From: Collimonas antrihumi
Lineage (GTDB): Bacteria > Pseudomonadota > Gammaproteobacteria > Burkholderiales > Burkholderiaceae_D
Direction: 5' to 3'
Assembly: GCF_018304965.1 (NCBI RefSeq)
Contig: NZ_JAGQED010000006.1
Coordinates: 124,001 to 188,000 of the forward strand
DNA length: 64,000 nt
Position 1 is the stretch's first letter, and each line of letters starts with the position of its first letter. A program made the position numbers and the translations under genes. Below, in pieces: positions 10,463-25,354 of the stretch. Below the pieces are notes generated by a model. That model was not told where the DNA came from and searched no databases. It saw only the letters and a program-made list of their open reading frames with translations.

Positions 10463-11770
10463 ATGAAATCCAATAGCGGCCGCTGGTACGGCGTTATTAC
10501 CCTGTTTATCATTGTCGCCATTTCCTATGTAGACCGAATCAATATCTCGGTACTGATTACCGATCCCGCATTCTTGAGTCACATCGACCTGGCCAAGAAT
10601 GATCGCGCCAGCCAGGGTTTCCTGGCCACGGCGTTCATGCTGGGTTACGGGATTTCCGCCTTTATCCTGACACCGTTTTGCGCCGCACTGTTCGGGGTGC
10701 GAAAGAGTCTGATCTATGGCTTGATCATGTGGGGCGCCGTCACTTTCCTGACACCGCATTTCCACGGCTACGGCATTCTGGTGGCATCGCGCATCTTGCT
10801 CGGCGTCGCCGAGGGGCCTTTGTTTTCTCTGGCGTCGTCATACATCAAGGCGCACTTCGAGGGACGCGAAAACGGCAAGCCCAACTCCTTCGTCAATATG
10901 GGAACGGGTCTGGGCCTGGCGCTCGGCTATCCGCTTGTCGGTTACATGCTGGTCAGCTTTCACTGGGAGATGTCGTTCTACCTGATCGGGTTGATGAATG
11001 TCCTGCTAGGCGTTCCACTGGTGATGGCGTTTGTACGCATGCCGAAAATGGCGGCTTATATGGAAAAACCCAGCTCGATGGGCGATGCGATGACGCGAGC
11101 TGGCGATATCGTCAAAGGGGCGTTGAAAACGCGTCACCTGTTCCTGATCACCATACTGACTTCCGCCGCATTGGCCTATCTCTGGGGCAGCAGCAACTGG
11201 CTGCCGGCGTACCTGAAAGAAGCGCGTGGCTTCTCGCTGAAGGAGCTGGGCTGGCTTGCATCCTTGCCACAATATGCGCTGGTGCTGGCCGTGCTGCTGG
11301 GTGGAGTCATCATTGACAGGATTGAACGTCAGCGCGTGCCGTTTATCTTCATGGCAGCAAGTGTCGGCGTCGCCTTGTCGGTGCTGTTGGCGATTAATGT
11401 GGAGAACGCCTACTGGGCAACCTACAGCCTGATTGCCGCCAATTTCTTCTGGGGATTGCTCAGCCCGGCTATTCCTAGCACGGTGCAATATTATTCGCGT
11501 CCCGAACACACGGCCAGCGCCTTTGGCGTCGTCAACGGCACGGGCAGCCTGGTGGCCGGATTCATGCCAGCCTTGATGGGCGGCGTGATTAGTGCCGTGG
11601 CCGCCGCATCGGGTACAACCGCCGGTTCGGGGGCGGGGTTCTTTGCGGGATTCGCGCTGCTTATCGGTACCCAGTTAGTCGTGTTCATCTGCGGTTTGAT
11701 CCTGTGGCTGCGTGAGCGCGCCGATAAGCATCGGGCTGCGCACGCAGTGTCAGGTCTTGGCGTTTCATGA
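10463..11770 (+). CDS. MFS transporter, anion:cation symporter (ACS) family
   Basis: A 435-residue permease with the ACS signature VAISYVDRINISV and about twelve hydrophobic segments; RILLGVAEGPLFSLASSY matches the helix-5 region of the family. ACS members import aromatic acids and other organic anions with protons. It heads the rightward catabolic locus under its own upstream region, so it likely imports the locus substrate. The ATG at 10463 has GGGGGA at the right distance; a GTG at 10424 is in frame but less likely. A sequence matching its upstream element also precedes the next operon. Confidence 0.9.
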   Translation: MKSNSGRWYGVITLFIIVAISYVDRINISVLITDPAFLSHIDLAKNDRASQGFLATAFMLGYGISAFILTPFCAALFGVRKSLIYGLIMWGAVTFLTPHFHGYGILVASRILLGVAEGPLFSLASSYIKAHFEGRENGKPNSFVNMGTGLGLALGYPLVGYMLVSFHWEMSFYLIGLMNVLLGVPLVMAFVRMPKMAAYMEKPSSMGDAMTRAGDIVKGALKTRHLFLITILTSAALAYLWGSSNWLPAYLKEARGFSLKELGWLASLPQYALVLAVLLGGVIIDRIERQRVPFIFMAASVGVALSVLLAINVENAYWATYSLIAANFFWGLLSPAIPSTVQYYSRPEHTASAFGVVNGTGSLVAGFMPALMGGVISAVAAASGTTAGSGAGFFAGFALLIGTQLVVFICGLILWLRERADKHRAAHAVSGLGVS

Positions 11771-12096
11771 TGGAAGGGTGCGGGCGCCACGAACATGGCG
11801 CCGCACCGGCGGCCATTACCCGGAATAATTTACTCGCTCGGGTAGTGTCGGCTCACAGGCCATCGCGGCTGCAATCAGTTTTAGTGTTTCCATAGTTTTC
11901 AGTTATAAATCATCGAGTTACATCAAAAAAAAATAAAAAAGATCTATCTATGCGGGAGATCTCTGCTATATTCCTGTTTAAGCAATCTCATATATGATCC
12001 GTTGGTTTATATATGAAACAAATGAATTCTTACTGGTCGCAGCGCTTGCTTGGAGTTAGAGCGAATACCGGCACGGTTCGATAACAAGAGACAAAC
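11771..12096. other. 326-bp gene-free regulatory region before the main catabolic operon
   Basis: The first part is GC-rich without features. From about 11890 it is AT-rich with an A-tract and two palindromes: TCATATATGA (11988-11997, perfect) and the IclR-like element at 12004-12019. No gene is seen. Confidence 0.7.
12004..12019. promoter_or_regulatory. Candidate IclR-family operator before the SDR gene
   Basis: GGTTTATATATGAAAC is a near-palindrome of the GTTTC-N6-GAAAC type, 77 bp before the SDR start. It is almost the same as the element at 10194. A perfect TCATATATGA palindrome lies just upstream (11988-11997). Confidence 0.55.
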
Positions 12097-12861
12097 ATGA
12101 CACAAAGCACGCAACTACTGGCAGGACGACGGATTTTGATTACCGGCGCAGCGCGCGGCCTTGGCCTGGCGTTCGTTACCGCTGCCGCCGAAGCCGGCGC
12201 TAGCGTAGCGATGGCTGACATTCTGCAAGACAGTTTGCAGCAAGCGGTCGCCGTGCTACAACAGCGCGGCCTGAAGGTGGCGGGCTTCACGCTCGACCTC
12301 GCCGATCCGCAATCGGTTGAATTGTGTGCAGAGCAGGCGACCAGCTGGCTGGGTGGGCTGGACGGTCTGGTTAACAACGCGGCCGTGACCAACTCTGGCG
12401 GCCGCAGTTCCGAACAACTGGACGTAGCGATGTGGGATCAGGTCATGAGCGTCAACGTGCGCGGCACCTGGCTGATGACCAATGCGTGTCTGCCGGCGCT
12501 ACGACAGTCCGGGCGCGGCAGCGTCGTCAACCTGTCTTCCGACACACCGCTGTGGGGAGCACCGAATCTGTTGGCATACGTTGCCAGCAAGAGCGCAGTG
12601 ATCGGCATGACGCGCTCGCTGGCGCGTGAACTGGGCGCCGACAACATCACCGTCAACGCCGTGGCGCCCGGGTTGACGCTGGTGGAGGCCACCGAATATG
12701 TGCCGCAGGCACGCCATCAGATGTACCACGATCGTCGCGCGATACAGCGTGAACAGTTGCCGGAAGACGTCTGTGGCGCAGTGATTTTTGCACTATCCGA
12801 CCTGTCCCGGTTCTTTACCGGACAAGTGATGGCCGTCAATGGCGGCTTTGTCATGAACTAA
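12097..12861 (+). CDS. Short-chain dehydrogenase/reductase (SDR)
   Basis: A 254-residue classical SDR, NAD(P)-dependent oxidoreductase. It has the nucleotide-binding motif TGAARGLG near the N-terminus, NNAA in the middle, the catalytic serine in NLSSD and the active site YVASK; it ends with the usual C-terminal part QVMAVNGGFVMN. It is the first gene of the long operon running to 24019 and is followed by a cupin gene after 31 nt. The substrate, probably an alcohol or dihydrodiol intermediate, is unknown. No strong ribosome site is visible before the ATG at 12097. Confidence 0.92.
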   Translation: MTQSTQLLAGRRILITGAARGLGLAFVTAAAEAGASVAMADILQDSLQQAVAVLQQRGLKVAGFTLDLADPQSVELCAEQATSWLGGLDGLVNNAAVTNSGGRSSEQLDVAMWDQVMSVNVRGTWLMTNACLPALRQSGRGSVVNLSSDTPLWGAPNLLAYVASKSAVIGMTRSLARELGADNITVNAVAPGLTLVEATEYVPQARHQMYHDRRAIQREQLPEDVCGAVIFALSDLSRFFTGQVMAVNGGFVMN

Positions 12862-12892
12862 CAGTCAACTGGACGAACGCAAGGAGAAAACG

Positions 12893-13432
12893 ATGACAGA
12901 TTTATCCGAACAACAGAACATCAAGCGCAGCTGGGATCAAGCCGAAGGCGCCAGTTTCAGCCAGTGGATGGATAGCCGCGTAGCGCGCTTTTCGAGCCGT
13001 AAATACGACTGGAATGCACTCAAGTTCCAGGCCGACTACGACCCTAAATACAGCCGCGCCCAAATGCGTTATATCGGCACCGGCGGTACCGGCGTGGCCA
13101 ATGACAGCAGCGTGATCCCATCCGAACACTTCACTTTCTCGACCATGATCATTCCGGCCGGCCACGAAGGTCCGCCGCATTTGCATGTCGACGTCGAGGA
13201 AGTGTTCTTCGTTTTGCGCGGAAAACTCAAGCTGGTGCTGGAAAAAGACGGTGAACGCTACGAAACCATACTGACCGAACGCGACGTGGTATCGATTCCG
13301 CCCGGCGTCTATCGCGAAGAAATCAACATCGGCGAAGAAGATGCGTTGATGTGCGTGATGCTGGGTGCGAAAACGCCGATTACGCCGACTTATCCAGCCG
13401 ATCATCCGCTGGCGAAAATCAAGCGTGGCTGA
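12893..13432 (+). CDS. Cupin-domain protein
   Basis: A 179-residue single-domain cupin. The first cupin motif is clear (GPPHLHVDVEEVFFVLRG: His, His and Glu as metal ligands). The second motif is less canonical, around IPPGVYREEINIG, with no obvious histidine. Cupins in catabolic loci can be dioxygenases, isomerases or binding proteins; the function here is not known. The ATG at 12893 has AAGGAGAA upstream. Only one base separates its stop from the next gene. Confidence 0.85.
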   Translation: MTDLSEQQNIKRSWDQAEGASFSQWMDSRVARFSSRKYDWNALKFQADYDPKYSRAQMRYIGTGGTGVANDSSVIPSEHFTFSTMIIPAGHEGPPHLHVDVEEVFFVLRGKLKLVLEKDGERYETILTERDVVSIPPGVYREEINIGEEDALMCVMLGAKTPITPTYPADHPLAKIKRG

Positions 13433-13433
13433 T

Positions 13434-14312
13434 ATGACGATGATCATGCCCGCCACCGGCGCAGGACAGCTGGAAGACGCCCTCGATTTGCTCGAGCGCG
13501 GCTTTCCGGAACGTAGCGTCGACGTCGGCGGCAGCATGGTTTCATATCGTAGTTGTGGCAGCGAATCCGCAACCGGCCGTAGCGTAGTGCTATTGCACGG
13601 CATAGGTTCGGGGGCGGCGTCGTGGCTGCAGTGTGCGCTGAAACTACAGCAGGACGCCCAGGTCATTGCCTGGAACGCGCCTGGCTATGGCAACTCGTCG
13701 CCATTGCCGATGACGCATCCACGCGCCGCCGATTATGCGTCGCGTCTGCAACAATTTTTGCAGGCGCTTGGCCTGAAGAATTACGTGCTGGTGGGGCATT
13801 CGCTGGGAGCGATGATGGCGGCGGCGCATGTGGCCGCAGCCCCCCGCGGCGTGGCGCAGTTGCTACTGATTAGTCCGGCCCAAGGCTATGGCAGTGACGA
13901 CAAACGCTTGCGTGGACAACAGATCGCACAGCAACGCCTGGATGTCCTGGAAAAGCAAGGGGTGGACGGCATGGCACTGAAAAGTCCTGAGCGCATGCTG
14001 TCTGCGCAAGCTAGCGAGTCTGCTCGTGCCTGGGTGCGCTGGAATACGCAAAAGCTGAATCCGGCCGGATACGTGCAGGCGGTGCACATGCTATGCGGCG
14101 ACGATATTCAGCGATATGTGCCGGCAGGGTCGTCGGCTGCGGTATATTGCGGCGCCGCTGACATTGTCACCACGCCACAGGAAAGCAGGGCGCTGGCCGA
14201 CAGTTTCAAACTTCCTTTCCAGCTGATAGACGATGCCGGCCATGCCTGCTACGTCGAGCAGCCGGAAGCAGTAGCAGCGGTGATACGTCACCACCTTTAT
14301 CAACTTTCTTAA
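13434..14312 (+). CDS. Alpha/beta hydrolase
   Basis: A 292-residue alpha/beta-hydrolase with HGIG (oxyanion hole), the nucleophile elbow GHSLGA, an aspartate near GAADIVTTP and the catalytic histidine in DAGHACYVE. Such enzymes hydrolyse esters, enol lactones or C-C bonds of ring-cleavage products. The nucleophile motif is GHSLG rather than the GNSMGG common in meta-cleavage product hydrolases, so C-C hydrolase activity is not assured. The start at 13434 lies one base after the cupin stop, which suggests translational coupling; an upstream in-frame extension overlapping the cupin gene was rejected. Confidence 0.88.
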   Translation: MTMIMPATGAGQLEDALDLLERGFPERSVDVGGSMVSYRSCGSESATGRSVVLLHGIGSGAASWLQCALKLQQDAQVIAWNAPGYGNSSPLPMTHPRAADYASRLQQFLQALGLKNYVLVGHSLGAMMAAAHVAAAPRGVAQLLLISPAQGYGSDDKRLRGQQIAQQRLDVLEKQGVDGMALKSPERMLSAQASESARAWVRWNTQKLNPAGYVQAVHMLCGDDIQRYVPAGSSAAVYCGAADIVTTPQESRALADSFKLPFQLIDDAGHACYVEQPEAVAAVIRHHLYQLS

Positions 14313-14321
14313 GACAAGATC

Positions 14322-15158
14322 ATGAATAAACCAGAGCTGCCAGAAGAAGAAATGCAAGAAAAATATCTCGTTCCGGGTTTGGAGCGCGGCTTGCGCCTGC
14401 TGTGCGAATTCAGCCGGCAGGACCAGAGCCTGTCGGCGCCGGAACTGGCGCGCCGCCTGAGCGTGCCGCGCTCGACGGTGTTTCGCTTGCTGACCACCCT
14501 GGAGCGCATGGGTTTCGTCGAACGCGCTGACGGCGGCCGCGATTATCGTCTCGGCATGGCAGTGCTGCGTCTGGGTTTCGAATACCTGGCGTCGCTGGAA
14601 CTGACTGAAATCGGCCGGCCTCTGCTGGATCGTTTGCGCGACCAGATTTCCTATCCCTGCAACCTGGTAGTGCGCGACGGCCGTTCGATCGTCTATGTCG
14701 CCAAATCGGTGACGCCGACCGCCTTCGTCAGCTCAGTCAATGTCGGTACCCGCTTGCCGGCGCATGCCACGGTGCTCGGCCGCGTCCTGTTGGAAGACCT
14801 GTCGCTGGCAGAGCTGCGCGAACTGTATCCGGAAGAGCATCTGGAAAGCTTCTCCAGCAACACGCCGAAGACTGTAGTCGAGCTGTTCGACATGGTGCAG
14901 CACGACCGTGAGCGCGGATACGTATTGCAGGAAGGTTTTTTCGAAACCGGTATCTCGACTATTGCAGCGCCGGTGCGTGATCACTCCGGCAAGGTAGTGG
15001 CGGCGATGGGAGCGACGATTCCGTTGCCGCATATCGAAGCCAGCCAGCTTGACGGCATCGTGCGCCTGGTGCGCGAGACTGCCGGCGAACTGTCCGGCCT
15101 GCTCGACCACGCTCCTGAGAAATCAGGCAGCAAGGTCGTCAACATGTGGCGGGAGTAA
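14322..15158 (+). CDS. IclR family transcriptional regulator
   Basis: A 278-residue regulator with an N-terminal winged helix-turn-helix (about residues 15-80: PGLERGLRLL, LSAPELARRLSVPRSTVFRL, MGFVERA) and the IclR effector-binding domain (about 95-260). IclR proteins control aromatic catabolism through palindromes such as those seen at 10092, 10194 and 12004. It lies inside the operon, 9 nt after the hydrolase and 4 nt before the next SDR gene, so it would be co-transcribed with its likely targets. Confidence 0.93.
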   Translation: MNKPELPEEEMQEKYLVPGLERGLRLLCEFSRQDQSLSAPELARRLSVPRSTVFRLLTTLERMGFVERADGGRDYRLGMAVLRLGFEYLASLELTEIGRPLLDRLRDQISYPCNLVVRDGRSIVYVAKSVTPTAFVSSVNVGTRLPAHATVLGRVLLEDLSLAELRELYPEEHLESFSSNTPKTVVELFDMVQHDRERGYVLQEGFFETGISTIAAPVRDHSGKVVAAMGATIPLPHIEASQLDGIVRLVRETAGELSGLLDHAPEKSGSKVVNMWRE

Positions 15159-15162
15159 GAGC

Positions 15163-15972
15163 ATGAACATGGTTCGACTCGACGGCAAAGTTGCCGCCGT
15201 CACCGGCGGCTCTTCAGGAATCGGCCTGGCAACTGTAGAGTTGCTGCTGGAAGCCGGCGCGGCGGTGGCGTTTTGCGGCCGTAATCAGGAGCGCCTGACG
15301 CAAGTCGAAGCCATGCTGCGTCTGCGCTTTCCGCAAGCCAAGCTGTATTGCGCGGTGTGCGACGTGCTGTCGGAAGAACAGGTGCAAGCGTTCGCCGCTG
15401 CGGTCGAGAAAAATCTCGGCCCGGTAGCGATGCTGATCAACAATGCGGGACAGGGGCGGGTATCGACCTTTGCCGATACCGAAGACGCAGCCTGGATCGA
15501 GGAGCTGCGCCTTAAATTCTTTTCCGTGATTTATCCGACCAGAGCTTTCCAGCCGCAGTTGCAGCGTATGAGCGCGGCCGACGGCCATGCCGCCATCGTC
15601 TGCGTCAATTCCTTGCTGGCGATACAGCCGGAACCGCACATGGTGGCTACCTCCGCCGCCCGCGCCGGCGTGCACAATCTGGTCCGCTCGCTGGCGACAG
15701 AATTCAGTCCCATGGGCATTCGCGTCAACGGCATCCTGATCGGCCTGGTGGAATCCGGCCAGTGGCGTCGCCGCTATGAAGCGCGTGAAGAACGCGACTT
15801 GTCCTGGGAACAATGGACCCAGGCGCTGGCCCAGAAAAAACATATTCAACTCGGTCGTCTCGGCCATCCACAGGAAGCCGCGCGCGCCATCATATTTTTG
15901 GCGACACCGCTTTCTTCGTACACAACTGGCAGTCATATCGACGTTTCAGGAGGACTTTCCCGCCATGCCTAA
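15163..15972 (+). CDS. Atypical SDR-family protein lacking the YxxxK active site
   Basis: A 269-residue SDR-fold protein. The nucleotide-binding motif TGGSSGIG (14-21), NNAG and a serine (S150 in VCVNSLLA) are present, but the segment that should hold Tyr-x-x-x-Lys reads MVATS (M160 and S164). Both catalytic residues are thus absent. I infer that it is not a standard alcohol dehydrogenase; it may bind cofactor, use other residues or act in a complex. The ATG at 15163 has GGGAGTAAGAGC before it. Its end overlaps the ThDP-enzyme start by 8 nt, so the two may work together. Confidence 0.85.
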   Translation: MNMVRLDGKVAAVTGGSSGIGLATVELLLEAGAAVAFCGRNQERLTQVEAMLRLRFPQAKLYCAVCDVLSEEQVQAFAAAVEKNLGPVAMLINNAGQGRVSTFADTEDAAWIEELRLKFFSVIYPTRAFQPQLQRMSAADGHAAIVCVNSLLAIQPEPHMVATSAARAGVHNLVRSLATEFSPMGIRVNGILIGLVESGQWRRRYEAREERDLSWEQWTQALAQKKHIQLGRLGHPQEAARAIIFLATPLSSYTTGSHIDVSGGLSRHA

Positions 15973-17665
15973 AAAAATGCAAGTTACCGTCGGCTGCGCC
16001 ATCGCAGCCTTTCTCGAGCAGTGTGACGTCAAGGCAGCATTCGGGGTCATTTCAATTCATAACATGCCGATCCTGGATGCCTTCGGCGAGCGCGGCAAGA
16101 TCCGCTTCGTCATGTCGCGCGGCGAAGCCGGCGGCGCCAATATGGCGGACGCTTATGCGCGCACTACCGGCGGCCTTGGCGTCTGCCTGACCAGCACCGG
16201 CACCGCAGCCGGCAATGCCGCCGGTGCGATGGTGGAGGCACTGACCGCGGGCACGCCGTTGCTGCACCTTACCGGCCAGATCGAGACGCCTTACCTGGAT
16301 CAGAGCCTGTCATATATCCACGAAGCGCCGGATCAATTGACCATGCTCAAGGCAATATCGAAAGCGGCGTTCCGCGTACGTAGCGTCGATACCGCGATCA
16401 GCACTATCAAGCTGGCGGTGCAAACTGCGCTGACGCCGCCGATGGGGCCGGTCAGCGTCGAGATTCCGATCGACATCCAGGCGGCGCTGATCACCATGCC
16501 ATCCGACCTGAAGCCGCTGCCGATTCCAGCCAATACACCGTCGGCGCATGCGCTTGACGAGCTGGCTGCGCGCCTGGTCAAGGCCAAGCGTCCGATGCTG
16601 TGGGTTGGCGGCGGCGCGCGCCACGCCAGCAAGCAGGTCAAGCGACTGTTAGATCTCGGCTTCGGCCTGGTCACTACCACGCAAGGTCGCGGCATTGTGC
16701 CGGAAGACGATCCACGTTCGCTGGGTGCTTTCAACCTGCATAAGCCGGTCGAAAATTTCTACCAGACTTGCGATGCCGTGGTGGTAGTCGGTTCGCGGCT
16801 GCGTGGCAATGAGACATTGAAATATGAGCTGAAACTGCCGCAGGCGCGCTATCGCATCGATGCCGATCCGGCTGCCGAAGGCCGCTGCTACAACAGCGAT
16901 TACTTTGTCTGCGGAGATGCCGCGCTGGCGCTTGATGGCCTGGCCGACCGGTTGCAGGCTCTTAAATCGCTGCAAGTCGATCCGGCTTTCATCGGCGATT
17001 TGCAGAAGGCGCGCGAAAGTGCGGTGCACGGCCTGGTCGACGGGCTCGGTCCATATAGCGCGCTGGTCGAACAATTGCAAAAAGCTGCAGGACGCAATTT
17101 CAACTGGGTGCGTGACGTAACCGTCTCCAACAGCACCTGGGGCAATCGCTATCTGCGCATTTTCGATCCGCTGGCTGGCGTGCACGCACTCGGCGGTGGC
17201 ATCGGCCAAGGCCTGGCGATGGGTATCGGTGCCGCGGTCGGCGCTGCGGCGACGGCATCCGGCAAAAAGACTTTTTGCCTGGCCGGCGATGGCGGCTTCA
17301 TCCTGAACCTGGGTGAACTGGCAACTGCCGTGCAAGAGCGTGCCGATATGGTCATCGTCCTGATGAACGACCAGAGCTACGGCGTCATCAAGAACATCCA
17401 GGACGCGCAGTATGGTGGTCGTCGCCATTACGTCGAGCTGCACACGCCCGACTATGCGCAATTGTCGCAGTCGCTGAAGCTGCGCCACACGCGCATCAGC
17501 GACCTGGCCGACGTTGAGAATGGCTTGCGCATGGCGTTGGCCGAGCCGGGACCGTTCATGCTGGAAATCGACATGCTGTCTATAGGTAAATTCAAGACTG
17601 CCTTCGCCGGCCCCCCGGTGAATGAAGAAAAAGTGGCTGAAAACACCGTCGCAACCGTAGCCTGA
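15965..17665 (+). CDS. Thiamine diphosphate-dependent enzyme, acetolactate-synthase-like
   Basis: A 566-residue ThDP enzyme in three domains: an N-terminal pyrimidine-binding domain with the catalytic glutamate E54 (SRGEAGGANMADAYAR), a central domain (about 190-330) and a C-terminal PP domain with the ThDP motif beginning GDGGFILNLGE (441 on) and ending VIVLMNDQ. Relatives decarboxylate 2-oxo acids or ligate and cleave next to a carbonyl. It would suit a 2-oxo acid formed after ring cleavage. It lacks a partner small subunit and lies in a catabolic operon, so it is not biosynthetic acetolactate synthase. A strong AGGAGG lies upstream of the ATG at 15965. Confidence 0.9.
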   Translation: MPKKMQVTVGCAIAAFLEQCDVKAAFGVISIHNMPILDAFGERGKIRFVMSRGEAGGANMADAYARTTGGLGVCLTSTGTAAGNAAGAMVEALTAGTPLLHLTGQIETPYLDQSLSYIHEAPDQLTMLKAISKAAFRVRSVDTAISTIKLAVQTALTPPMGPVSVEIPIDIQAALITMPSDLKPLPIPANTPSAHALDELAARLVKAKRPMLWVGGGARHASKQVKRLLDLGFGLVTTTQGRGIVPEDDPRSLGAFNLHKPVENFYQTCDAVVVVGSRLRGNETLKYELKLPQARYRIDADPAAEGRCYNSDYFVCGDAALALDGLADRLQALKSLQVDPAFIGDLQKARESAVHGLVDGLGPYSALVEQLQKAAGRNFNWVRDVTVSNSTWGNRYLRIFDPLAGVHALGGGIGQGLAMGIGAAVGAAATASGKKTFCLAGDGGFILNLGELATAVQERADMVIVLMNDQSYGVIKNIQDAQYGGRRHYVELHTPDYAQLSQSLKLRHTRISDLADVENGLRMALAEPGPFMLEIDMLSIGKFKTAFAGPPVNEEKVAENTVATVA

Positions 17666-17675
17666 GGAGACTGAC

Positions 17676-18482
17676 ATGCTGCACGTTTCAATGATAGGTT
17701 GTGGCGCCATCGGCCTGGGCGTGATGGAGTTGCTGAAGAGCGACCCGGAAGTCGCCTTCGATCTCGTGATCGTGCCGCAGGCACATATGGAGGCTGCGCG
17801 TTCGCTGGTGTTTTCGCTGGCGCCGCAGGCCCGCGTTACCGACCGCCTGGAAGAGCAGGGCCGGCGCCCCGACCTGCTGATCGAATGCGCGGGTCACAAA
17901 GCCATCGAGGAACACATCATTCCAGCATTGAAACGCGGCATTCCCTGCATGGTGGTGTCAATAGGTGCGCTGTCGGAACTGGGTCTGGTGGAAAAACTGG
18001 AGGCTGCCGCTCGCGAGGGCAAGACCCAGGTGCAACTGCTGTCCGGTGCAATCGGCGCCATCGATGCCTTGTCGGCAGCCCGTGTCGGCGGTCTTGATTC
18101 GGTGGTGTATACCGGCCGCAAGCCGCCCGGCGCATGGAAGGACACACCGGCGGACGGCCTGTTCGATCTGGATAGCTTAAAAATCGCAACCGTGATTTTC
18201 GAAGGCACGGCGCGTGAAGCAGCGCGCCTGTATCCGAAGAACGCCAACGTCGCCGCCACGCTGTCGCTGGCAGGCTTGGGCCTGGATCACACGCATGTGC
18301 GTCTGCTGGCCGACCCCGCCGTCACCGAAAACGTGCATCACGTGGAAGCCAAGGGCGCCTTCGGCGGGTTTGAGCTGACCATGCGTGGCAAGCCGTTGGC
18401 CGCCAATCCGAAAACCTCGGCCCTGACCGTATTCAGCGTCGTACGCGCGCTCGGCAACCGCGCCCACGCCTTATCTATCTGA
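17676..18482 (+). CDS. Aspartate dehydrogenase-like (NadX family) protein
   Basis: A 268-residue protein of the L-aspartate dehydrogenase family: N-terminal Rossmann domain with GCGAIG (residues 8-13), LLIECAGHKAIEEH, and the C-terminal catalytic domain with IFEGTAREAARLYPKNANVA and a histidine in LDHTHVRL at the usual catalytic place. The family makes oxaloacetate (or iminoaspartate) and ammonia from aspartate, or runs in reverse. In this operon it more likely acts on an amino or imino acid intermediate, which would fit a nitrogen-containing substrate, but this is inference. It lies 10 nt after the ThDP gene. Confidence 0.86.
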   Translation: MLHVSMIGCGAIGLGVMELLKSDPEVAFDLVIVPQAHMEAARSLVFSLAPQARVTDRLEEQGRRPDLLIECAGHKAIEEHIIPALKRGIPCMVVSIGALSELGLVEKLEAAAREGKTQVQLLSGAIGAIDALSAARVGGLDSVVYTGRKPPGAWKDTPADGLFDLDSLKIATVIFEGTAREAARLYPKNANVAATLSLAGLGLDHTHVRLLADPAVTENVHHVEAKGAFGGFELTMRGKPLAANPKTSALTVFSVVRALGNRAHALSI

Positions 18483-18494
18483 GTGAAGAGTGAA

Positions 18495-19970
18495 ATGAAT
18501 CCAAACGAGACACTACCGATCTGCATCGCCGGTAACTGGCGCCTGGGGCAAGGTGATCGCTATGCGAGCCTGTATCCCGCTACCGGCGAACCGATTGCGT
18601 GGCTCAACGCCGCCAGCATCGCGGATGTGGAAGAAGCCATAAGCGGCGCGGACCATGCATTCCGCACCAGTGGCTGGGCGCAGCGTAAGCCGCATGAACG
18701 CGCTGCGGTGCTGTACCGTGTGGCCCAGCTGATCCGTGAGCGTTCGGAGTATCTGGCGCAACGCCAGCGCCTGGACAACGGTAAGCCGATCTCGGAAACG
18801 CGTGCGTTGGTAGCCAGCGCCGCCGGCACTTTCCAGTTTTTCGCCGCGGCCTGCGAAACCATGGAAGACACCATCACACCGATGCGCGGCGACAACCTGA
18901 CCATGAGCGTGTATGAAGCGATGGGCGTGGTTGCAGCCATCACGCCATGGAATTCGCCCATCGCCAGCGAAGCGCAAAAGATGGCGCCGGCGCTGGCTGC
19001 CGGCAACGCGGTAGTGGTCAAGCCGGCCGAAGTCACGCCGTTGATGGCGTTGGAACTGGCGAAGATCTGCGATGAAGCCGGCGTGCCGAAGGGATTGATC
19101 AGCGTGTTGCCTGGCAAGGGTTCTGTGATCGGCGACGCCATCACTGTGCATCCGCTGGTGCGACGGGTATCGTTCACCGGCGGTACCAGCACCGGCAAAC
19201 ATATTGCCCACATCGCCGCCGACAAGATGATGCCGGTATCTTTGGAACTGGGTGGAAAATCACCGACCATGGTATTCGAGGATGCCGACCTGGATCACGC
19301 GGTGGCTGGCGTGCTGTATGGCATTTTCAGTTCATCGGGTGAGTCTTGTATCGCCGGCTCCCGCTTGTTCGTGGCACGCGGAATTTACGCATCTTTCATC
19401 GAGCGTCTGGCGGCTGGCGCCGCGGCGTTGCGTGTCGGCGATCCTGCCGATGAGCGCACCCAACTGGGGCCGCTGATCACCCCGCGTCATCGCGATTCGA
19501 TCGAATCGTATGTGGCGACGGGCGTGGCCGACGGCGGACAGATTCGCACCGGTGGTACACGCCCAAGCGGAGAGCTGTTCGAACGTGGAAATTATTACCT
19601 GCCGACCATCATCGAAGGCCTGACTAACGACCAACGTATCTGCCAGGAAGAAATTTTCGGGCCGGTGCTGGTGGCGATGCCCTTTGATAACGAAGAAGAC
19701 TTGATCGCACAAGCCAACGATAGCGTCTACGCCTTGGCGGCGGGAATCTGGACCCGCGACTACAAGAAAGCCTGGCGCTTCGGACGCGCGGTACAAGCCG
19801 GCAATGTGTGGATCAACACCTACAAGCAATTGTCGATTTCGACGCCGTTTGGCGGCTGGCGCGATAGCGGTCTGGGACGTGAAAAAGGCCGTTTGGGGAT
19901 TTTGCAGTACATGGAGCAAAAGAGCATGTACTGGGGCTTGAATGAAGAACCGCTGCCGTGGGCAGGCTGA
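18495..19970 (+). CDS. Aldehyde dehydrogenase
   Basis: A 491-residue NAD(P)-dependent aldehyde dehydrogenase. It shows the N-terminal substrate region, TPWNSPI and KPAEVTPL (cofactor binding), FTGGTSTGK, the general base glutamate in SLELGGKSP, the nucleophile in GESCIAGSR and the C-terminal EEIFGPV. The typical task in such loci is oxidation of a semialdehyde from ring cleavage. A GTG at 18483 is also in frame; the ATG at 18495 matches the usual family start. The spacer after it carries an 11-nt direct repeat. Confidence 0.93.
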   Translation: MNPNETLPICIAGNWRLGQGDRYASLYPATGEPIAWLNAASIADVEEAISGADHAFRTSGWAQRKPHERAAVLYRVAQLIRERSEYLAQRQRLDNGKPISETRALVASAAGTFQFFAAACETMEDTITPMRGDNLTMSVYEAMGVVAAITPWNSPIASEAQKMAPALAAGNAVVVKPAEVTPLMALELAKICDEAGVPKGLISVLPGKGSVIGDAITVHPLVRRVSFTGGTSTGKHIAHIAADKMMPVSLELGGKSPTMVFEDADLDHAVAGVLYGIFSSSGESCIAGSRLFVARGIYASFIERLAAGAAALRVGDPADERTQLGPLITPRHRDSIESYVATGVADGGQIRTGGTRPSGELFERGNYYLPTIIEGLTNDQRICQEEIFGPVLVAMPFDNEEDLIAQANDSVYALAAGIWTRDYKKAWRFGRAVQAGNVWINTYKQLSISTPFGGWRDSGLGREKGRLGILQYMEQKSMYWGLNEEPLPWAG

Positions 19971-19977
19971 AAACAAG

Positions 19978-19998
19978 GTAACTGAGAAGTAACTGAGG
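19978..19998. repeat. 11-nt direct repeat after the aldehyde dehydrogenase gene
   Basis: GTAACTGAG occurs at 19978 and again at 19989, just after the stop codon. It belongs to the group of stop-proximal duplications noted in this window. Confidence 0.7.
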
Positions 19999-20018
19999 GT
20001 AGTGCGAGGAGACGCAGA

Positions 20019-20984
20019 ATGGATGTATTAGGGATAGATGAAATCACCTACGGCGCGGACGATCTGCCGTTATGCAAGCGATTTTTTTCCGACTGGGGCA
20101 TGACGCTGGTACAGGACAGCGAACAAGTCCTGGTATTTGAAACGCAAAACGGCTGCCGCGTAGTGGTCAAGCACAGCGATGCTGCCGATTTGCCGCCGGC
20201 GATCGAAGCCGGACCGACCTTGCGTGAAGTGGTCTGGGGCGTATCGGCGACAGAGGTGTTGGAACGCTTTGCGATGCGGATTGAAGGTTTCCCCGGTTAT
20301 GTGAACCAGGGAACGCGTATCGGCTGCACTGACCCTAATGGTCTGGCGGTGCGTTTTCAGGTAACGCAAAAGCGTGACATAGAAATCGAGTGCGCAGAGA
20401 TGAATACCTGGTCGCACAAACATCGAATCAACCAGCGCAGTCCGGCATACGAGCGCGCTGCGCCGATCGAAGTCGGCCACGTTGTGTTCTTCGTCAAGGA
20501 CGTGCAAGCCTGCGAAAGTTTTTATTGCGACAACTTCGGTTTCGTACCGTCCGATCACTATCCGGGCCGCGGCGCTTTCCTGCGTTGTGCCGCCGACGGT
20601 GGTCATCACGATATTTTCCTGTTGCAGCCGCCGGAGGCGCGCTCAGGTCTGAATCATGTGGCATTCACGGTGCGCGATATTCACGAAGTGTTCGGCGGCG
20701 GCATGCATATGTCGCGCCAGGGCTGGGATACGCAACTCGGACCCGGACGCCATCCGATTTCGTCGGCTTATTTCTGGTATTTCCGCAACCCGGCCGGTGG
20801 CTTGATCGAATACTACGCGGACGAAGACCAGCTCAATGAAAAGTGGGAGCCGCGCGACTTCGAACCTGGTCCGACCATGTTTGCCGAATGGGCGATAGAT
20901 GGCGGCATCGACGGCAATACCCGGCGCCAGAAAAATGCCGAAGGTCCAAGCGGAAAATTCCTGACCGACCGCCCAAAATCCTGA
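20019..20984 (+). CDS. Two-domain VOC protein, extradiol dioxygenase type
   Basis: A 321-residue protein with two vicinal-oxygen-chelate modules. Comparison with type I extradiol dioxygenases (catechol 2,3-dioxygenase) gives the iron ligands H154 (VGHVVFF), H213 (LNHVAFT) and E264 (GGLIEYYAD), and also the second-shell residues H196/H197 (GGHHDIF), H245 (GRHPIS) and Y254. All elements for ring cleavage are therefore in place, with spacing very close to the known enzymes. I infer meta-cleavage of a catechol- or aminophenol-like intermediate made by the Rieske oxygenase of the same operon. A GGAG sequence precedes the ATG at 20019. Confidence 0.87.
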   Translation: MDVLGIDEITYGADDLPLCKRFFSDWGMTLVQDSEQVLVFETQNGCRVVVKHSDAADLPPAIEAGPTLREVVWGVSATEVLERFAMRIEGFPGYVNQGTRIGCTDPNGLAVRFQVTQKRDIEIECAEMNTWSHKHRINQRSPAYERAAPIEVGHVVFFVKDVQACESFYCDNFGFVPSDHYPGRGAFLRCAADGGHHDIFLLQPPEARSGLNHVAFTVRDIHEVFGGGMHMSRQGWDTQLGPGRHPISSAYFWYFRNPAGGLIEYYADEDQLNEKWEPRDFEPGPTMFAEWAIDGGIDGNTRRQKNAEGPSGKFLTDRPKS

Positions 20985-21005
20985 TGCGAGGTATTCATTT
21001 AGATC

Positions 21006-21332
21006 ATGGATGATAAACCACAAACGATGTTGCTGACTGTGCTGCTCAAGCATGATCAAACCATGAACCTGGACCAGATCCAGGCGCACCTGAAAAAAGC
21101 CGACTGGTGGGACCGTTTCCCGGTCGAAGGTTCGCGCGTGGTGTCCTGGACGGTGGCGATGGGATTGGGGCAAATAGTGACCCTCGAGTTACCGCCGGCG
21201 CTGCTGCCGTTGGTGAACGTCGAACTCGAACGCAGCGCCTGGGGGGCTTATCGCACCGAATGTTATCCAACTTACGATTTTGTACCAGTGCGTGAGCGTA
21301 TTCGCGAACGCGTAAAAAATGGAGGCCAATAA
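21006..21332 (+). CDS. Small conserved-looking protein of unknown function (108 aa)
   Basis: I do not recognise a named family. The 108-residue protein has no signal peptide and no cysteine cluster. It has alternating hydrophobic segments (MLLTVLLKHD, IVTLELPPALLPLVNVEL) and a Trp/Tyr-rich core (ADWWDRF, SAWGAYRTECYPTYDF), which suggests a compact alpha+beta fold, perhaps of the dimeric barrel kind. It lies between the extradiol-type gene and a small HTH-like protein, overlapping the latter by one base. It is thus translated as part of the oxygenase set and may be an accessory or a small enzyme. Confidence 0.75.
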   Translation: MDDKPQTMLLTVLLKHDQTMNLDQIQAHLKKADWWDRFPVEGSRVVSWTVAMGLGQIVTLELPPALLPLVNVELERSAWGAYRTECYPTYDFVPVRERIRERVKNGGQ

Positions 21333-21565
21333 TGAACGACACAAGACAGGATGTCTATCTCAATCCGCACCAGGCGCGCCGGCGTCAGCCAACCCAGTAC
21401 GAGGATTTGCTGGGGGATTCCATCGAACGCGCATTTGCAGCGGGCATCCACGATTTGCCGGCGCTGGTGGCGCATCTGAACCGCACCGGCCCGGGCTGTC
21501 CACATAACGACGGTATCTGGAACGAAACCTTGTATCAAGAAGAAATCGCAAGACTGGCGGCATAG
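21332..21565 (+). CDS. Small recombinase-like helix-turn-helix protein (77 aa)
   Basis: A 77-residue protein. Its C-terminal half (LPALVAHLNRTGPGCPHN, then DGIWNETLYQEEIARLA) resembles the DNA-binding-like helical module of serine recombinases (LN-x-x-G...W-x-x-x-x-x-x-x-I), but there is no recombinase catalytic domain. Small proteins of this kind occur next to Rieske oxygenase genes; their role is unknown to me. The gene starts on the last base of the preceding stop (TAATG) with GGAGG upstream, so translation is coupled. It could be a regulator or an oxygenase accessory. Confidence 0.75.
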   Translation: MNDTRQDVYLNPHQARRRQPTQYEDLLGDSIERAFAAGIHDLPALVAHLNRTGPGCPHNDGIWNETLYQEEIARLAA

Positions 21566-21593
21566 GCCGACCTAGTTATTCAGGAGATTAGTG

Positions 21594-22631
21594 ATGAGAA
21601 CGACAGCCAATGATCCAGTTGAAGCGGTACTTGCCGCCGGATTGAAAGATTTGTGGTACCCGATTTGCCCGTCTGAATTTGTAGCCGAACGCCCGGTTTC
21701 TCTGCGCCGCCTGGGACGAAAATTCGTTATCTGGCGCGAAACCTCCGGCAAGCTGCACGCACTGGAAGACCATTGCCCGCATCGCGGCGCGCCATTGTCC
21801 ATGGGCATTGCACTGGGCGATCGCATCGCATGCGGTTACCACGGCGTGCAGGTGCGCTTTGATGGCGTCGTCACCAGCGTGCCCGGCAGCCCCGGCTGCA
21901 AGCTGGAAGGCGCGAAAGCGACACGTTCCTTCCACGTGCAGGAGGCTTGTGGCGCAATTTTCTTGTACAACTCCAGTGTCGATGTCGACCAGCCGCCGCC
22001 ATTGCAACTGCCGGAAGAGTTGACCAGCGACGAATACTCCAATTTCCTGTGCTACACGGAATGGAAGGGCGGTTATCGCTACGTGCTCGACAATGTGATG
22101 GATCCGATGCACGGCACTTTCCTGCACAAGCAGTCGCACTCGATGGCGGAGGGCGACAGCACGGCAACCTTCCGCGTGCGCGAAACCGATATCGGTTTTG
22201 TATTCGAAAAAGAAGGCCAGAGCGGCGTCAATTTCGACTGGACAGAGTGGGCCGATACCGATCTGCACTGGATGCGCCTGGCGATTCCCTATCCGAAAAC
22301 CGGCGGCCCCGGTGGCAGCTTCGTCATCATCGGCAGCTATACCCCGGTCAGCGACAACGTTGCTGCCGTATTCCACTGGCGTTGCCGCAAGCTGAGCGGC
22401 TGGCAGCGCGACACCTGGCGCTTCCTCTATCGCAATCGGCTGGAGGCGCGTCATTGGGCTGTGCTGGAGCAGGATCGCGTAGTGCTGGAAGTGATGGAGC
22501 CTGACGCCAATCAACACGAGATGTTGTATCAGCACGATATGGGCATCGTCCGTTTGCGCCGCCATATGCGCAACCTGGCCAAGGAGCAACTGGCCAAGGA
22601 AGAAGCGGCAATCCAGGCCAAGGCAGCGTAA
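21594..22631 (+). CDS. Rieske non-heme iron oxygenase, alpha subunit
   Basis: A 345-residue oxygenase of the phthalate/vanillate (VanA-like) type. The Rieske [2Fe-2S] ligands are C61, H63, C80 and H83 (CPHRG and CGYHG). The mononuclear iron site has D170, H173 and H178 (DNVMDPMHGTFLH). No beta subunit gene is present, as expected for this class, and the reductase lies two genes downstream. It hydroxylates or O-/N-demethylates an aromatic or cyclic substrate with O2 and NADH-derived electrons. The start at 21594 has AGGAGATTAGTG before it; a GTG one codon upstream is in frame. Confidence 0.93.
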   Translation: MRTTANDPVEAVLAAGLKDLWYPICPSEFVAERPVSLRRLGRKFVIWRETSGKLHALEDHCPHRGAPLSMGIALGDRIACGYHGVQVRFDGVVTSVPGSPGCKLEGAKATRSFHVQEACGAIFLYNSSVDVDQPPPLQLPEELTSDEYSNFLCYTEWKGGYRYVLDNVMDPMHGTFLHKQSHSMAEGDSTATFRVRETDIGFVFEKEGQSGVNFDWTEWADTDLHWMRLAIPYPKTGGPGGSFVIIGSYTPVSDNVAAVFHWRCRKLSGWQRDTWRFLYRNRLEARHWAVLEQDRVVLEVMEPDANQHEMLYQHDMGIVRLRRHMRNLAKEQLAKEEAAIQAKAA

Positions 22632-22636
22632 GCCGT

Positions 22637-23056
22637 ATGACTGCCATGGTAGCCGTACGCCGGGTGATGTGCGACGAGGTGGCTGAACCGGCCACTGCGA
22701 CCTGGTCTAACTGCCTGCTGCTCGGCAACGAGATCGTGTTGTCCGGCATGACCGCGCATCCTGCCGCGCGCGATGCTGCCCTCGATACCTATGCGCAAAC
22801 GCTGGTAGTGCTGGGCAAGATCCGCGATCTGGTGGAAGCTGCCGGCGGCACGCTCGGCAGCATCTACAAGCTGGTGATTTATGTGAAGGATATTGGCGAC
22901 AAGGATGAGGTGGGGCGGGCACGCCGCACCTTCTTCCAGACGCCGTATCCGTGTTCGACGCTGGTGGAAGTAAGTGGCCTGGTGTTTTCTGAATTGACGG
23001 TCGAGATCGACGCTTTCGCGCGGCTCGACGTCGATCTGCAACAGGCCGTTGTTTAG
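22637..23056 (+). CDS. RidA (YjgF/YER057c) family protein lacking the key Arg
   Basis: A 139-residue RidA-fold protein. Canonical RidA uses an arginine (R105 in E. coli) to bind the carboxylate of enamine/imine acids and hydrolyse them to ketoacids. Here the aligned residue is cysteine (C106 in PYPCSTLVEV), while the glutamate of TVEIDA (E123) is kept. I infer that it is not a canonical 2-iminopropanoate deaminase; it may act on a different intermediate, as 2-aminomuconate deaminase does within the same superfamily, or have a structural role. It lies 5 nt after the Rieske gene and 12 nt before the reductase. Confidence 0.88.
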   Translation: MTAMVAVRRVMCDEVAEPATATWSNCLLLGNEIVLSGMTAHPAARDAALDTYAQTLVVLGKIRDLVEAAGGTLGSIYKLVIYVKDIGDKDEVGRARRTFFQTPYPCSTLVEVSGLVFSELTVEIDAFARLDVDLQQAVV

Positions 23057-23068
23057 TGTGAGGTTTTT

Positions 23069-24019
23069 ATGAGCAATTCTCTGATTTCGGTGCGGGTCCA
23101 AGCCATGCGTTTTGAGGCGAAAGGCGTTCTCAGTGTGGAGCTGGTGGCGTTGGACGATGCCAGTTTGCCGCCGTTCGAAGCCGGTTCGCACATCGATCTG
23201 CATCTGGCTAACGGTATCGTGCGCAGCTATTCATTGCTGAACTCGCCGACCGAGCGCCATCGCTATGTGGTCGGCGTGCTGAACGATCGTAACAGCCGCG
23301 GCGGTTCGCGTTATGTGCACGAGCAGTTGCGGGTCGGTTCCAGCTTGACGATTTCGGCGCCGCGCAATAATTTTCCGCTAGCTGAATCGGCCCGGCATTC
23401 GGTGCTGATTGCCGGCGGCATCGGCATCACGCCGATTTCTTGCATGCTGAATCATTTGCGTAGCCAGGGGCAATCTGCCGAGTTGCTGTATTGCGCCAGA
23501 TCGCGCGCAGAGGCAGCGTTTAGCGAGGCGCTGTTGCAGCAAACCGGCGTTAGTGGGCATTTCGACGATGAACAAGGCGCGCCGCCCGATCTGCGTGCCT
23601 ATTTGGCCAGCAAGCCGAAGGATGCACACTTCTACTGCTGCGGCCCGACACCTATGCTCAATGCGTTTGAAACGATTTGCGCCGAGCTGGATTTGCACAA
23701 CGTGCATATCGAGCGTTTCGCCGCCGCCGAAAATGTTACCGCGGTGCAAGGAGACGAATATGTGGCGGAACTGGCGCGCAGCAAGAAAATCATTATGGTG
23801 CCGGCCGGGAAATCGCTGCTGGACGCCTTGCTGGATGCCGGCATGGATGTGGAGCATAGCTGCCGCGAAGGTGTTTGCGGCTCCTGCGAAACCAAGGTAT
23901 TGGAAGGTGAACCGGAACACCGCGACGGTGTACTCAGCAAGAGCGAAAGAGCGTCGAACAAAATGATGATGGTCTGTGTTTCGGGTTGCAAAGGCAAGCG
24001 TCTGGTATTGGATCTGTAA
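23069..24019 (+). CDS. Oxygenase reductase, PDR/VanB family (FMN, NADH, 2Fe-2S)
   Basis: A 316-residue electron-transfer flavoprotein that delivers electrons from NADH to the Rieske oxygenase. Domain order is as in phthalate dioxygenase reductase: FMN-binding with RSYSLLN (52-58), NAD-binding with AGGIGITP (115-122) and CCGPTPML (190-197), and a C-terminal plant-type ferredoxin with C265, C270, C273 and C303 (CREGVCGSC). The pairing with a single-subunit oxygenase fits a two-component system. It is the last gene of the operon; a terminator follows. Confidence 0.94.
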   Translation: MSNSLISVRVQAMRFEAKGVLSVELVALDDASLPPFEAGSHIDLHLANGIVRSYSLLNSPTERHRYVVGVLNDRNSRGGSRYVHEQLRVGSSLTISAPRNNFPLAESARHSVLIAGGIGITPISCMLNHLRSQGQSAELLYCARSRAEAAFSEALLQQTGVSGHFDDEQGAPPDLRAYLASKPKDAHFYCCGPTPMLNAFETICAELDLHNVHIERFAAAENVTAVQGDEYVAELARSKKIIMVPAGKSLLDALLDAGMDVEHSCREGVCGSCETKVLEGEPEHRDGVLSKSERASNKMMMVCVSGCKGKRLVLDL

Positions 24020-24047: not shown

Positions 24048-24062
24048 GGAACAAGCACAAGC

Positions 24063-24092
24063 AATACCCGCGATCGCCTCGGGTATTTTTTT
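24063..24092 (+). terminator. Rho-independent terminator of the catabolic operon
   Basis: Inverted repeat AATACCCG / CGGGTATT with a 9-nt loop, followed by a run of T. It lies 44 nt after the reductase stop and separates the operon from the porin gene. Confidence 0.9.
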
Positions 24093-24268
24093 GAGCTCGA
24101 TGAATTTTGTGGAACGTTGATTCGTATGTAAAACAAATAAATCTCGATCAACGTACCGCAGGCGGCAGTTCAGCTCCGCCAAACCAACACATCTCGTAAG
24201 CGCGGGGCATATGAGGATGGTGGACACGGTCAAGGCCGTGGTTATTCGATGAAGGGGGAGACAAACTC

Positions 24269-25354
24269 ATGAAGAAAATACTGATTGCCATGGCGGCGAC
24301 CGGTTTGGGTACAAGTGCATTTGCGCAAAGCAACGTGACGATATACGGCAGCCTGGATGCTGGCGTTGCGTACGTCAACAATCTAGGCGGCAAGTCCGTT
24401 GTGCGCATGGACCAAGGCACCATGCAACCGGACCGCATCGGTTTTCGCGGCAGCGAAGACCTGGGCGGCAATATGAAAGCCAATTTCCAGCTGGAAAGCG
24501 GTTTCTATACAACCACCGGCGCCCAGCCGTCGGCCGGAAAATTATTCAATCGCATGAGCACGGTTGGACTGTCCGGCGATTTCGGCGCCGTGACCATGGG
24601 CCACATGCCGGACATCGTGTTCGATTACGCCGGCAAACTAAGCAACGGCTATCAGCTCACCAACTGGTATCTATTCCATCCGGGAAATTTGGACAGCTTG
24701 GCTAACACCTTTCAGTTCGACAATGCCGTACGCTATACCACGCCGGCATTCTCCGGCCTGCAACTGAGCGGCATGGTCGGTTTCGGCGAAGTGGCTGGCA
24801 ACAATAGCAAAGGCCGCAACCTGAGCGCCGGCGCCAACTATTCCAATGGTCCGCTGCGTGCAGTACTCGCGTATTCGAAATTGAACGACAGGCCGGCGGG
24901 TTATGCCGGCGCCTTCCTGGGCAGCCTGAATCTGGGCAGCGCCGCCACCGTATTCAACAGCCTGACCACGATCGCGGCAGGGCTTGGGTACACGATCGGC
25001 GATGTGCGTCTTAACAGCCTGTACACACAGACCAAGATAGCATTGCCGACGGCGATGTCGCCGAAGCAGAAGAATCTCGATCTCGGAGCGGCCTGGCATT
25101 ACGCGACGGCAGATACGTTGAATTTCGGCTACAGCTTGTCCAAACTGGAAGGCGCACGCTGGAACACGGTCAGCTTGAGCAATGTGCATGCCTTGTCAAA
25201 GCGCACTGAACTGTATGTGCAAGCCGCTTATCAGCGTGCCGGCGGCGATGCAAAATTCGCGGTGATGAATGGCACCGGCACCGGCGGCGGCACCGGCGTT
25301 TCGGGAGGATCCAGTCAGCTGGTGACCACCGTCGGCATGCATCACTCGTTCTAA
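24269..25354 (+). CDS. Outer-membrane porin, Gram-negative general porin type
   Basis: A 361-residue beta-barrel porin of the Burkholderiales type. It has a signal peptide (MKKILIAMAATGLGTSAFA, then QSNVTIYGSLDAG), the conserved GFRGSEDLGGNMKANFQLESGF segment region, amphipathic strands throughout, and the final phenylalanine of HHSF needed for barrel assembly. It allows diffusion of small anions across the outer membrane. Its place at the end of the catabolic locus suggests that it takes up the substrate, but it has its own upstream region after a terminator. GGGGGAG precedes the ATG. Confidence 0.93.
   Translation: MKKILIAMAATGLGTSAFAQSNVTIYGSLDAGVAYVNNLGGKSVVRMDQGTMQPDRIGFRGSEDLGGNMKANFQLESGFYTTTGAQPSAGKLFNRMSTVGLSGDFGAVTMGHMPDIVFDYAGKLSNGYQLTNWYLFHPGNLDSLANTFQFDNAVRYTTPAFSGLQLSGMVGFGEVAGNNSKGRNLSAGANYSNGPLRAVLAYSKLNDRPAGYAGAFLGSLNLGSAATVFNSLTTIAAGLGYTIGDVRLNSLYTQTKIALPTAMSPKQKNLDLGAAWHYATADTLNFGYSLSKLEGARWNTVSLSNVHALSKRTELYVQAAYQRAGGDAKFAVMNGTGTGGGTGVSGGSSQLVTTVGMHHSF

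Follow-up and report, generated by a model that had tools for sequence, protein, structure and literature searches.

A conserved catabolic gene cluster of Collimonas antrihumi and its possible role in degrading kynurenate and similar quinoline acids

A conserved cluster with the enzyme families of aromatic ring cleavage

Which compound is degraded by a gene cluster that joins a Rieske oxygenase and an extradiol-type dioxygenase to a thiamine diphosphate (ThDP) enzyme and an aspartate dehydrogenase? This question was raised by a 64,000-nucleotide stretch of the Collimonas antrihumi genome (contig NZ_JAGQED010000006.1, positions 124,001 to 188,000; the window), in which 15 genes lie on the forward strand at 10463-24019 and are followed by a porin gene, the whole set occupying 10463-25354 (Table 1). 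The genes form a coherent catabolic pathway that is conserved among relatives and has parts that can be exchanged. Its best assignment, for which we consider the case evenly balanced, is the catabolism of 4-hydroxyquinoline-2-carboxylates, of which kynurenic acid is the most likely one in this strain; substrate, step order, products and ring opening are all read from the genes, and relatives may use xanthurenate and quinaldate.

A preliminary description of the window had listed 15 tightly packed genes of one direction and a porin, and Pfam and NCBIfam searches confirmed that each gene named there is an open reading frame of the stated family. Intergenic gaps from the first short-chain dehydrogenase/reductase gene (SDR1) to the reductase gene measure -8 to 48 bp, against 326 bp and 249 bp by which the MFS and porin genes, respectively, are set apart. 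This spacing makes a predicted 14-gene operon from SDR1 to the reductase likely, with the MFS and porin genes as separate units. Among the matches listed, only SDR2 (the second protein of this type), the ThDP enzyme and the aspartate dehydrogenase exceed curated NCBIfam cut-offs.

The preliminary description had also proposed looking for the same gene set in other genomes, and the set proved not to be confined to this one. One-per-species genomes were scanned with the ThDP protein and the best 80 of 349 matches were used. Nine enzymes were taken as the core: the Rieske oxygenase, SDR1, the VOC protein, SDR2, the ThDP enzyme, aldehyde dehydrogenase (ALDH), the cupin, the alpha/beta hydrolase and aspartate dehydrogenase. 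Because all nine occur together in 73 of these 80 named loci, the recurrence of the set is not due to chance; the remaining seven loci (L010, L022, L060, L061, L075, L076 and L079) are short or limited by their contigs. Hosts include Collimonas, Herbaspirillum, Massilia, Cupriavidus, Ralstonia, Pseudomonas, Variovorax and Pusillimonas, and diverged versions were detected in Acinetobacter, Klebsiella, Paracoccus, Pseudosulfitobacter, Novosphingobium, Caballeronia and Streptomyces records. The closest named relative of the locus is in Collimonas sp. OK307 (L001), with a ThDP protein 98% identical. In an even sample of 398 Pseudomonadota genomes, the SDR2 family was present in 16 at E <= 1e-60, the C. 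antrihumi genome included, and 15 of these scored above the cut-off. In a class-wide sample of 369 genomes, in which further forms of the cluster without a Rieske gene were sought, only the C. antrihumi genome matched (E <= 1e-80). One genome of the same genus (G170) had no SDR2-family match at E <= 1e-60, and the cluster thus varies within the genus.

A proposed route for kynurenate breakdown

In the bacterial kynurenate route, a 7,8-dihydrodiol is formed and converted to 7,8-dihydroxykynurenate, whose 8,8a-extradiol cleavage gives 5-(3-carboxy-3-oxopropenyl)-4,6-dihydroxypicolinate; the side chain is then reduced, decarboxylated to an aldehyde and oxidized to a carboxyethyl compound, and amino acids and acetate follow. 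The enzymology of this quinoline pathway was reportedly worked out in Pseudomonas in the 1960s by Hayaishi, Taniuchi and Horibata, and to our knowledge these activities, now about sixty years old, are without sequences. Papers by these authors are cited in PMC11354673 and PMC5610271. In the C. antrihumi cluster an oxygenase, a dihydrodiol dehydrogenase, an extradiol enzyme, a decarboxylase and an ALDH, as judged by protein family, are found in one unit. There is a fitting family for each early kynurenate step, including the unusual combination of extradiol enzyme, ThDP enzyme and ALDH, which supports the assignment.

In the scheme that we propose, the Rieske oxygenase and its reductase would convert kynurenate to the 7,8-cis-dihydrodiol, from which SDR1 would form 7,8-dihydroxykynurenate. 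The VOC protein would cleave the C8-C8a bond to yield a 4,6-dihydroxypicolinate that bears a 3-carboxy-3-oxopropenyl side chain. SDR2 would, at a guess, reduce the side-chain C=C bond; an aldehyde would form when the ThDP enzyme decarboxylates the 2-oxo acid, and ALDH would oxidize this aldehyde. The pyridine half might then be opened and split into glutarate and iminosuccinate by the cupin and/or the alpha/beta hydrolase, no single enzyme being assigned to the opening, and aspartate dehydrogenase would handle the iminosuccinate. By our own book-keeping, the ten carbons would be accounted for by CO2 (ThDP step), C5 (glutarate) and C4 (iminosuccinate). Iminosuccinate is the natural partner of aspartate dehydrogenase, and the N1-C2(COOH)-C3-C4 segment of kynurenate has the iminosuccinate skeleton, which fits the presence of this enzyme in the core set.

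The classical Pseudomonas pathway and the locus share a dihydroxylating oxygenase and a dihydrodiol dehydrogenase, followed by extradiol cleavage, a decarboxylation that gives an aldehyde, and oxidation of that aldehyde; in the classical pathway as in the proposed route, nitrogen ends in small acids. The classical pathway differs in being known as enzyme activities, with no genes found in the open-access literature; giving genes to it is what the best reading would do, and we see this as an equal balance of belief and doubt. The preliminary description had held that the locus matches no known pathway. That statement gives way where enzyme content is concerned, as the set fits the classical kynurenate pathway, and holds for genes: no paper assigning them was found by title or abstract start in the open-access PMC literature. 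Three EC numbers gave no match in the main text of PMC4084501.

Active sites and individual proteins

The VOC protein has an intact extradiol active site. Its metal ligands (H154, H213 and E264) as well as H197, H245 and Y254 align with those of homoprotocatechuate 2,3-dioxygenase (HPCD, 1f1x), and each of these six type I extradiol residues is kept in all 102 sequences. By its active site the protein is predicted to be a type I extradiol dioxygenase that cleaves a catechol, and together with the family matches this upholds the catabolic logic of Rieske oxygenase, reductase and extradiol enzyme put forward in the preliminary description. The Rieske protein (97 sequences) has conserved CPHRGA, C.YHG and DPMHG..LH motifs, which supply the CxH/CxxH cluster and the D..H....H iron site. 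These motifs are at least 97% conserved, and so are the GDG motif of the ThDP enzyme, the Tyr and Lys of the YxxxK motif that SDR1 retains, and the GHS and GHA positions of the hydrolase, in which a D position is also conserved. The ThDP enzyme additionally has a conserved N-terminal RGEAG. H96, H98, E102 and E103 of the cupin are invariant in 37 sequences; its fold search (model mean pLDDT 68) returned generic cupins only, from which no function could be read.

Aspartate dehydrogenase keeps the conserved blocks of its family, and aligns with the A. fulgidus enzyme (2dc1) over residues 62-265 and with T. maritima TM1643 over residues 67-262; the structures in the alignment were 2dc1, 1h2h and 1j5p. 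SDR2 lacks the catalytic Tyr-x-x-x-Lys of classical members and has TxxxR in its place, with Thr163 in 104 of 105 sequences (Ser in one) and Arg167 in all 105. Ordinary alcohol oxidation by SDR2 is therefore unlikely. In the RidA-like protein, the position of the carboxylate-binding Arg of RidA (Arg105) is occupied by Cys in 25 and by Ala in 4 of 29 sequences and never by Arg, making imine deamination by this protein doubtful. The orphan small protein sm1 has an AlphaFold2 model (mean pLDDT 85) with a ferredoxin-like order of strands and helices, and a fold search with it gave no match at E <= 0.001.

Exchangeable modules and peripheral genes

Modules were counted in 93 of 107 loci, those with more than 7.5 kb of sequence on either side of the ThDP gene midpoint; the 93 include L089, whose ThDP paralogue is outside the family and which is not a true member. 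Rieske and SDR1 genes were both present in 87 loci, both absent in four and found singly in two (L089 and L091). The HTH62 gene was present in exactly the 88 loci with a Rieske gene, and five loci had neither. The sm1 and RidA-like genes occurred together in 26 loci and were both missing in 67, being jointly present or absent in 93 of 93, though the HTH62 and Rieske genes lie between them. Electron transfer to the Rieske oxygenase also varies: the VanB-type reductase is replaced by a ferredoxin and a ferredoxin reductase in Klebsiella, Acinetobacter and some Caballeronia, and by an FAD reductase and a flavodoxin in some Rhodobacterales. The MFS position is taken by other transporters in many relatives. 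On plasmid pNK84 of Caballeronia NK8 (L091, 10128-19359) we observed a partial second copy, the fuller cluster being on another plasmid of the strain. It contains ferredoxin, HTH62, Rieske, ThDP and VOC genes, followed by molybdenum hydroxylase subunits, and this arrangement supports the logic of a ThDP step after extradiol cleavage.

Three peripheral genes fit the quinoline-acid family of substrates and thereby support the kynurenate assignment. The first encodes a flavin monooxygenase of the salicylate hydroxylase/6-hydroxynicotinate monooxygenase group, found in 33 of 108 loci; such a hydroxylase would suit the conversion of xanthurenate (8-hydroxykynurenate) to the same catechol. In the near-identical OK307 locus this gene lies between VOC and sm1 (L001, 15016-16207). 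At the corresponding place the window has only 21 bp (20984-21006), which resemble both ends of the OK307 stretch and suggest a loss of the gene, and no close copy was found in the C. antrihumi genome (best 26% identity). The second is a sulfatase gene, which belongs to the flavin-enzyme gene run in all three alphaproteobacterial loci that have both this enzyme and a TRAP transporter (two identified by Pfam, one from its translation) and would suit an aryl sulfate of xanthurenate. The third is a molybdenum hydroxylase, which suits the conversion of quinaldate to kynurenate. Among 43 genomes from the 80 loci, 13 encode a large subunit that shares at least 60% identity with its counterpart in the partial NK8 locus. 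In 11 of these the distance to the aspartate dehydrogenase gene was 7.2-33.3 kb; in the other two the gene was about 1 Mb away or on a different contig.

A wider reading, which we regard as tentative and somewhat less probable than the assignment itself, is that the cluster family represents the missing genetic basis of kynurenate, xanthurenate and quinaldate catabolism in soil, marine and clinical bacteria. Separate entry modules (Rieske oxygenase and SDR1; the flavin hydroxylase, in some cases with the sulfatase; the molybdenum hydroxylase) would feed one catechol, and a new type of pyridine ring opening would lead to glutarate and iminosuccinate or aspartate.

Several observations weigh against these readings. 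Support for kynurenate as the substrate is indirect, coming from what the genes appear to encode. The nearest relatives of solved structure have other specificities: for the flavin enzyme this is 6-hydroxynicotinate 3-monooxygenase, a decarboxylating type, and for the molybdenum hydroxylase the best PDB match is 4-hydroxybenzoyl-CoA reductase and not quinoline 2-oxidoreductase. Four loci, from three alphaproteobacteria and one Vibrio, initially showed the flavin enzyme without Rieske and SDR1 genes. In all three alphaproteobacteria the two genes turned out to be present 12-13 kb away. On the Vibrio nigripulchritudo plasmid (L087) there was no Rieske gene in the whole 351,712-base record, the chromosomes not being searched, and the 29.6 kb stretch contained no SDR1 either; its flavin gene (19250-20334) is spread over two reading frames and has no annotated coding sequence in this or a second record (L130), which may reflect decay or a sequencing error. 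The annotation of the second record splits the ThDP gene into two coding sequences. With the Vibrio gene broken there is no sound case without a Rieske gene, and the idea that the flavin enzyme stands in for Rieske oxygenase and SDR1 is weak; our confidence in the kynurenate assignment was accordingly lowered from slightly above even to even.

Genomic context adds to these points. Tryptophan 2,3-dioxygenase (TDO) is encoded in 37 of the 43 genomes, and it was linked to the cluster in none of the 13 genomes in which the place of the cluster is known; such linkage would be supportive and is not strictly required. In C. antrihumi, TDO is on a different contig from the cluster. A candidate glutaryl-CoA module beside L088 was a CoA-transferase/acyl-CoA dehydrogenase pair of ambiguous families, not clearly a glutaryl-CoA dehydrogenase, and no clear glutarate genes were found beside the cluster. 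Finally, P. aeruginosa PAO1 presumably carries a copy of the cluster. P. aeruginosa is reported to accumulate kynurenic acid (PMC4938989), which would speak against the assignment if an active copy of the cluster is present.

Alternative substrates

The most serious alternative, in our view unlikely, is that the locus degrades some other bicyclic or carboxylated aromatic compound by meta-cleavage, such as a different N-heteroaromatic acid or a plant phenolic. The Rieske oxygenase and SDR1, or the flavin enzyme, would make a catechol, the VOC protein would cleave it, and the ThDP enzyme and ALDH would shorten the 2-oxo acid. Enzyme families set reaction types and not the ring system, and the Rieske protein has only distant PDB relatives (best E 1e-19). 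On Novosphingobium pHR1a, a GH3 glycosidase gene (L086, 9957-11936) lies behind a TonB receptor and stops 4 bp short of the ThDP gene, possibly hinting at a glycoside substrate. Against this, the aspartate dehydrogenase of the core set and the molybdenum hydroxylase linked to it favor an N-heteroaromatic compound with a carboxylate next to nitrogen. They also make the nitrogen-bearing substrate suggested in the preliminary description plausible, even as its specific 2-aminomuconate branch falls away. Naphthalene degradation (nah) is similar to the locus in having a Rieske oxygenase, a cis-diol dehydrogenase, an extradiol enzyme and an aldehyde dehydrogenase. It differs in that an isomerase and a hydratase-aldolase remove the side chain as pyruvate, whereas the locus has a ThDP enzyme. 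Nicotinate and vitamin B6 degradation share alpha/beta hydrolases for ring-opened enamides and related flavin monooxygenases with the locus, but are not known to involve a Rieske oxygenase, ThDP enzyme or aspartate dehydrogenase.

It is improbable that the pathway begins at the side chain of an aromatic amino acid, with deamination by the dehydrogenase, decarboxylation by the ThDP enzyme and oxidation by ALDH, and that the resulting aryl acid then passes to the Rieske oxygenase, SDR1, the VOC protein and the hydrolase. An amino acid dehydrogenase, a ThDP decarboxylase and an ALDH do follow a known side-chain logic. However, the dehydrogenase here has the conserved blocks of the aspartate dehydrogenases, neither a hydratase nor an aldolase that would act on ring-cleavage fragments was found in the cluster, and the partial NK8 stretch pairs the ThDP enzyme with Rieske and VOC proteins, no ALDH or aspartate dehydrogenase having been found there.

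The 2-aminomuconate branch of an aminophenol-type substrate, proposed in the preliminary description, was rejected on gene content and is very improbable: the 2-aminophenol and 2-aminomuconate pathways share an extradiol enzyme, an ALDH and a RidA-family protein with the locus, but none of their lower-pathway enzymes (4-oxalocrotonate decarboxylase, vinylpyruvate hydratase, aldolase) was found by Pfam and NCBIfam among the 16 cluster proteins, the ThDP enzyme and aspartate dehydrogenase would be left unexplained, and the RidA-like gene, earlier taken as a hint of nitrogen, is an accessory lacking the Arg. Homarine was dropped as a candidate substrate, no paper on the topic having been found in the open-access literature.

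Possible significance

Kynurenic and xanthurenic acids are tryptophan-derived signaling products in animals. If the assignment is correct, the enzyme activities described about sixty years ago would receive sequences, and genomes would allow a prediction of where bacteria of soil, gut and lung remove these signals. The cluster would also contain an SDR family that lacks the usual two catalytic residues and a pyridine ring-opening step that as yet belongs to no one enzyme. In A. baumannii, A1S_0956-0958 are annotated as L-aspartate dehydrogenase, betaine-aldehyde dehydrogenase and acetolactate synthase large subunit, and appear with values of 2.18, 2.44 and 2.42 in a table of mucin-changed genes (PMC5757984). 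From gene order we infer that these three correspond to one end of the L082 cluster, with its aspartate dehydrogenase, ALDH and ThDP genes.

Candidate IclR operator and other features of the window

Upstream of both the MFS gene and SDR1 we detected TATATGANNCAAATG, a candidate operator that the IclR regulator may use at both sites. The window has two exact matches, compared with 0.02 expected at <=1 mismatch. The full pattern occurs in only 2 of 129 loci (L001 and L004). The same or a shorter form lies upstream of SDR1 in L001 and L002, and shorter forms were present in all seven Collimonas and Herbaspirillum loci inspected; the operator site is therefore a local feature.

Table 1. Positions of the cluster genes and candidate operator sites in the window, and of sulfatase genes in three other loci (last line)
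Feature	Position	Strand	Evidence and remarks
Candidate IclR operator upstream of MFS	10192..10215	+	Repeat family D2; exact TATATGANNCAAATG match 10201-10215
MFS importer, putative substrate uptake	10463..11770	+	PF07690 2.6e-47
Candidate IclR operator upstream of SDR1	12001..12024	+	TATATGANNCAAATG match from 12010
SDR1, proposed cis-dihydrodiol dehydrogenase	12097..12861	+	PF13561 1.7e-55
Single-domain cupin, proposed ring opening or isomerization	12893..13432	+	PF07883
Alpha/beta hydrolase, proposed C-C or enamide hydrolase	13434..14312	+	PF12697 1.6e-23
IclR regulator	14322..15158	+	PF01614, PF09339; best NCBIfam match PcaR/PcaU/PobR, below cut-off
SDR2, PRK07062 family, proposed C=C reductase	15163..15972	+	NF005468, 446 bits (cut-off 266)
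ThDP enzyme, PRK07064, proposed 2-oxo acid decarboxylase	15965..17665	+	NF005470, 917 bits (cut-off 495)
L-aspartate dehydrogenase (PRK13303 group)	17676..18482	+	NF009827, 491 bits (cut-off 226)
ALDH	18495..19970	+	PF00171 5e-166
VOC extradiol dioxygenase (predicted)	20019..20984	+	Active-site residues aligned with HPCD 1f1x
sm1, orphan small protein	21006..21332	+	No match in Pfam or NCBIfam; AlphaFold model
HTH_62 (HTH62), recombinase-like HTH small protein	21332..21565	+	PF20552 2.5e-29
Rieske oxygenase alpha subunit, VanA/DdmC-type	21594..22631	+	PF00355, PF19112
RidA-like protein without the usual Arg	22637..23056	+	PF01042 1e-14
VanB-type reductase, partner of the Rieske oxygenase	23069..24019	+	PF00111, PF00175
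Porin	24269..25354	+	PF13609 7e-48
Sulfatase genes adjoining TRAP transporter genes	L126 1433-2995; L128 1582-3243; L113 within 907-3975		

A second catabolic-looking gene set occupies 1580-8254 of the window. Judging from the translations, its reverse-strand genes encode proteins resembling fumarylacetoacetate hydrolase, dihydropyrimidinase and maleate isomerase as well as an MFS protein, and its forward-strand genes are of GntR-like and thiolase type.

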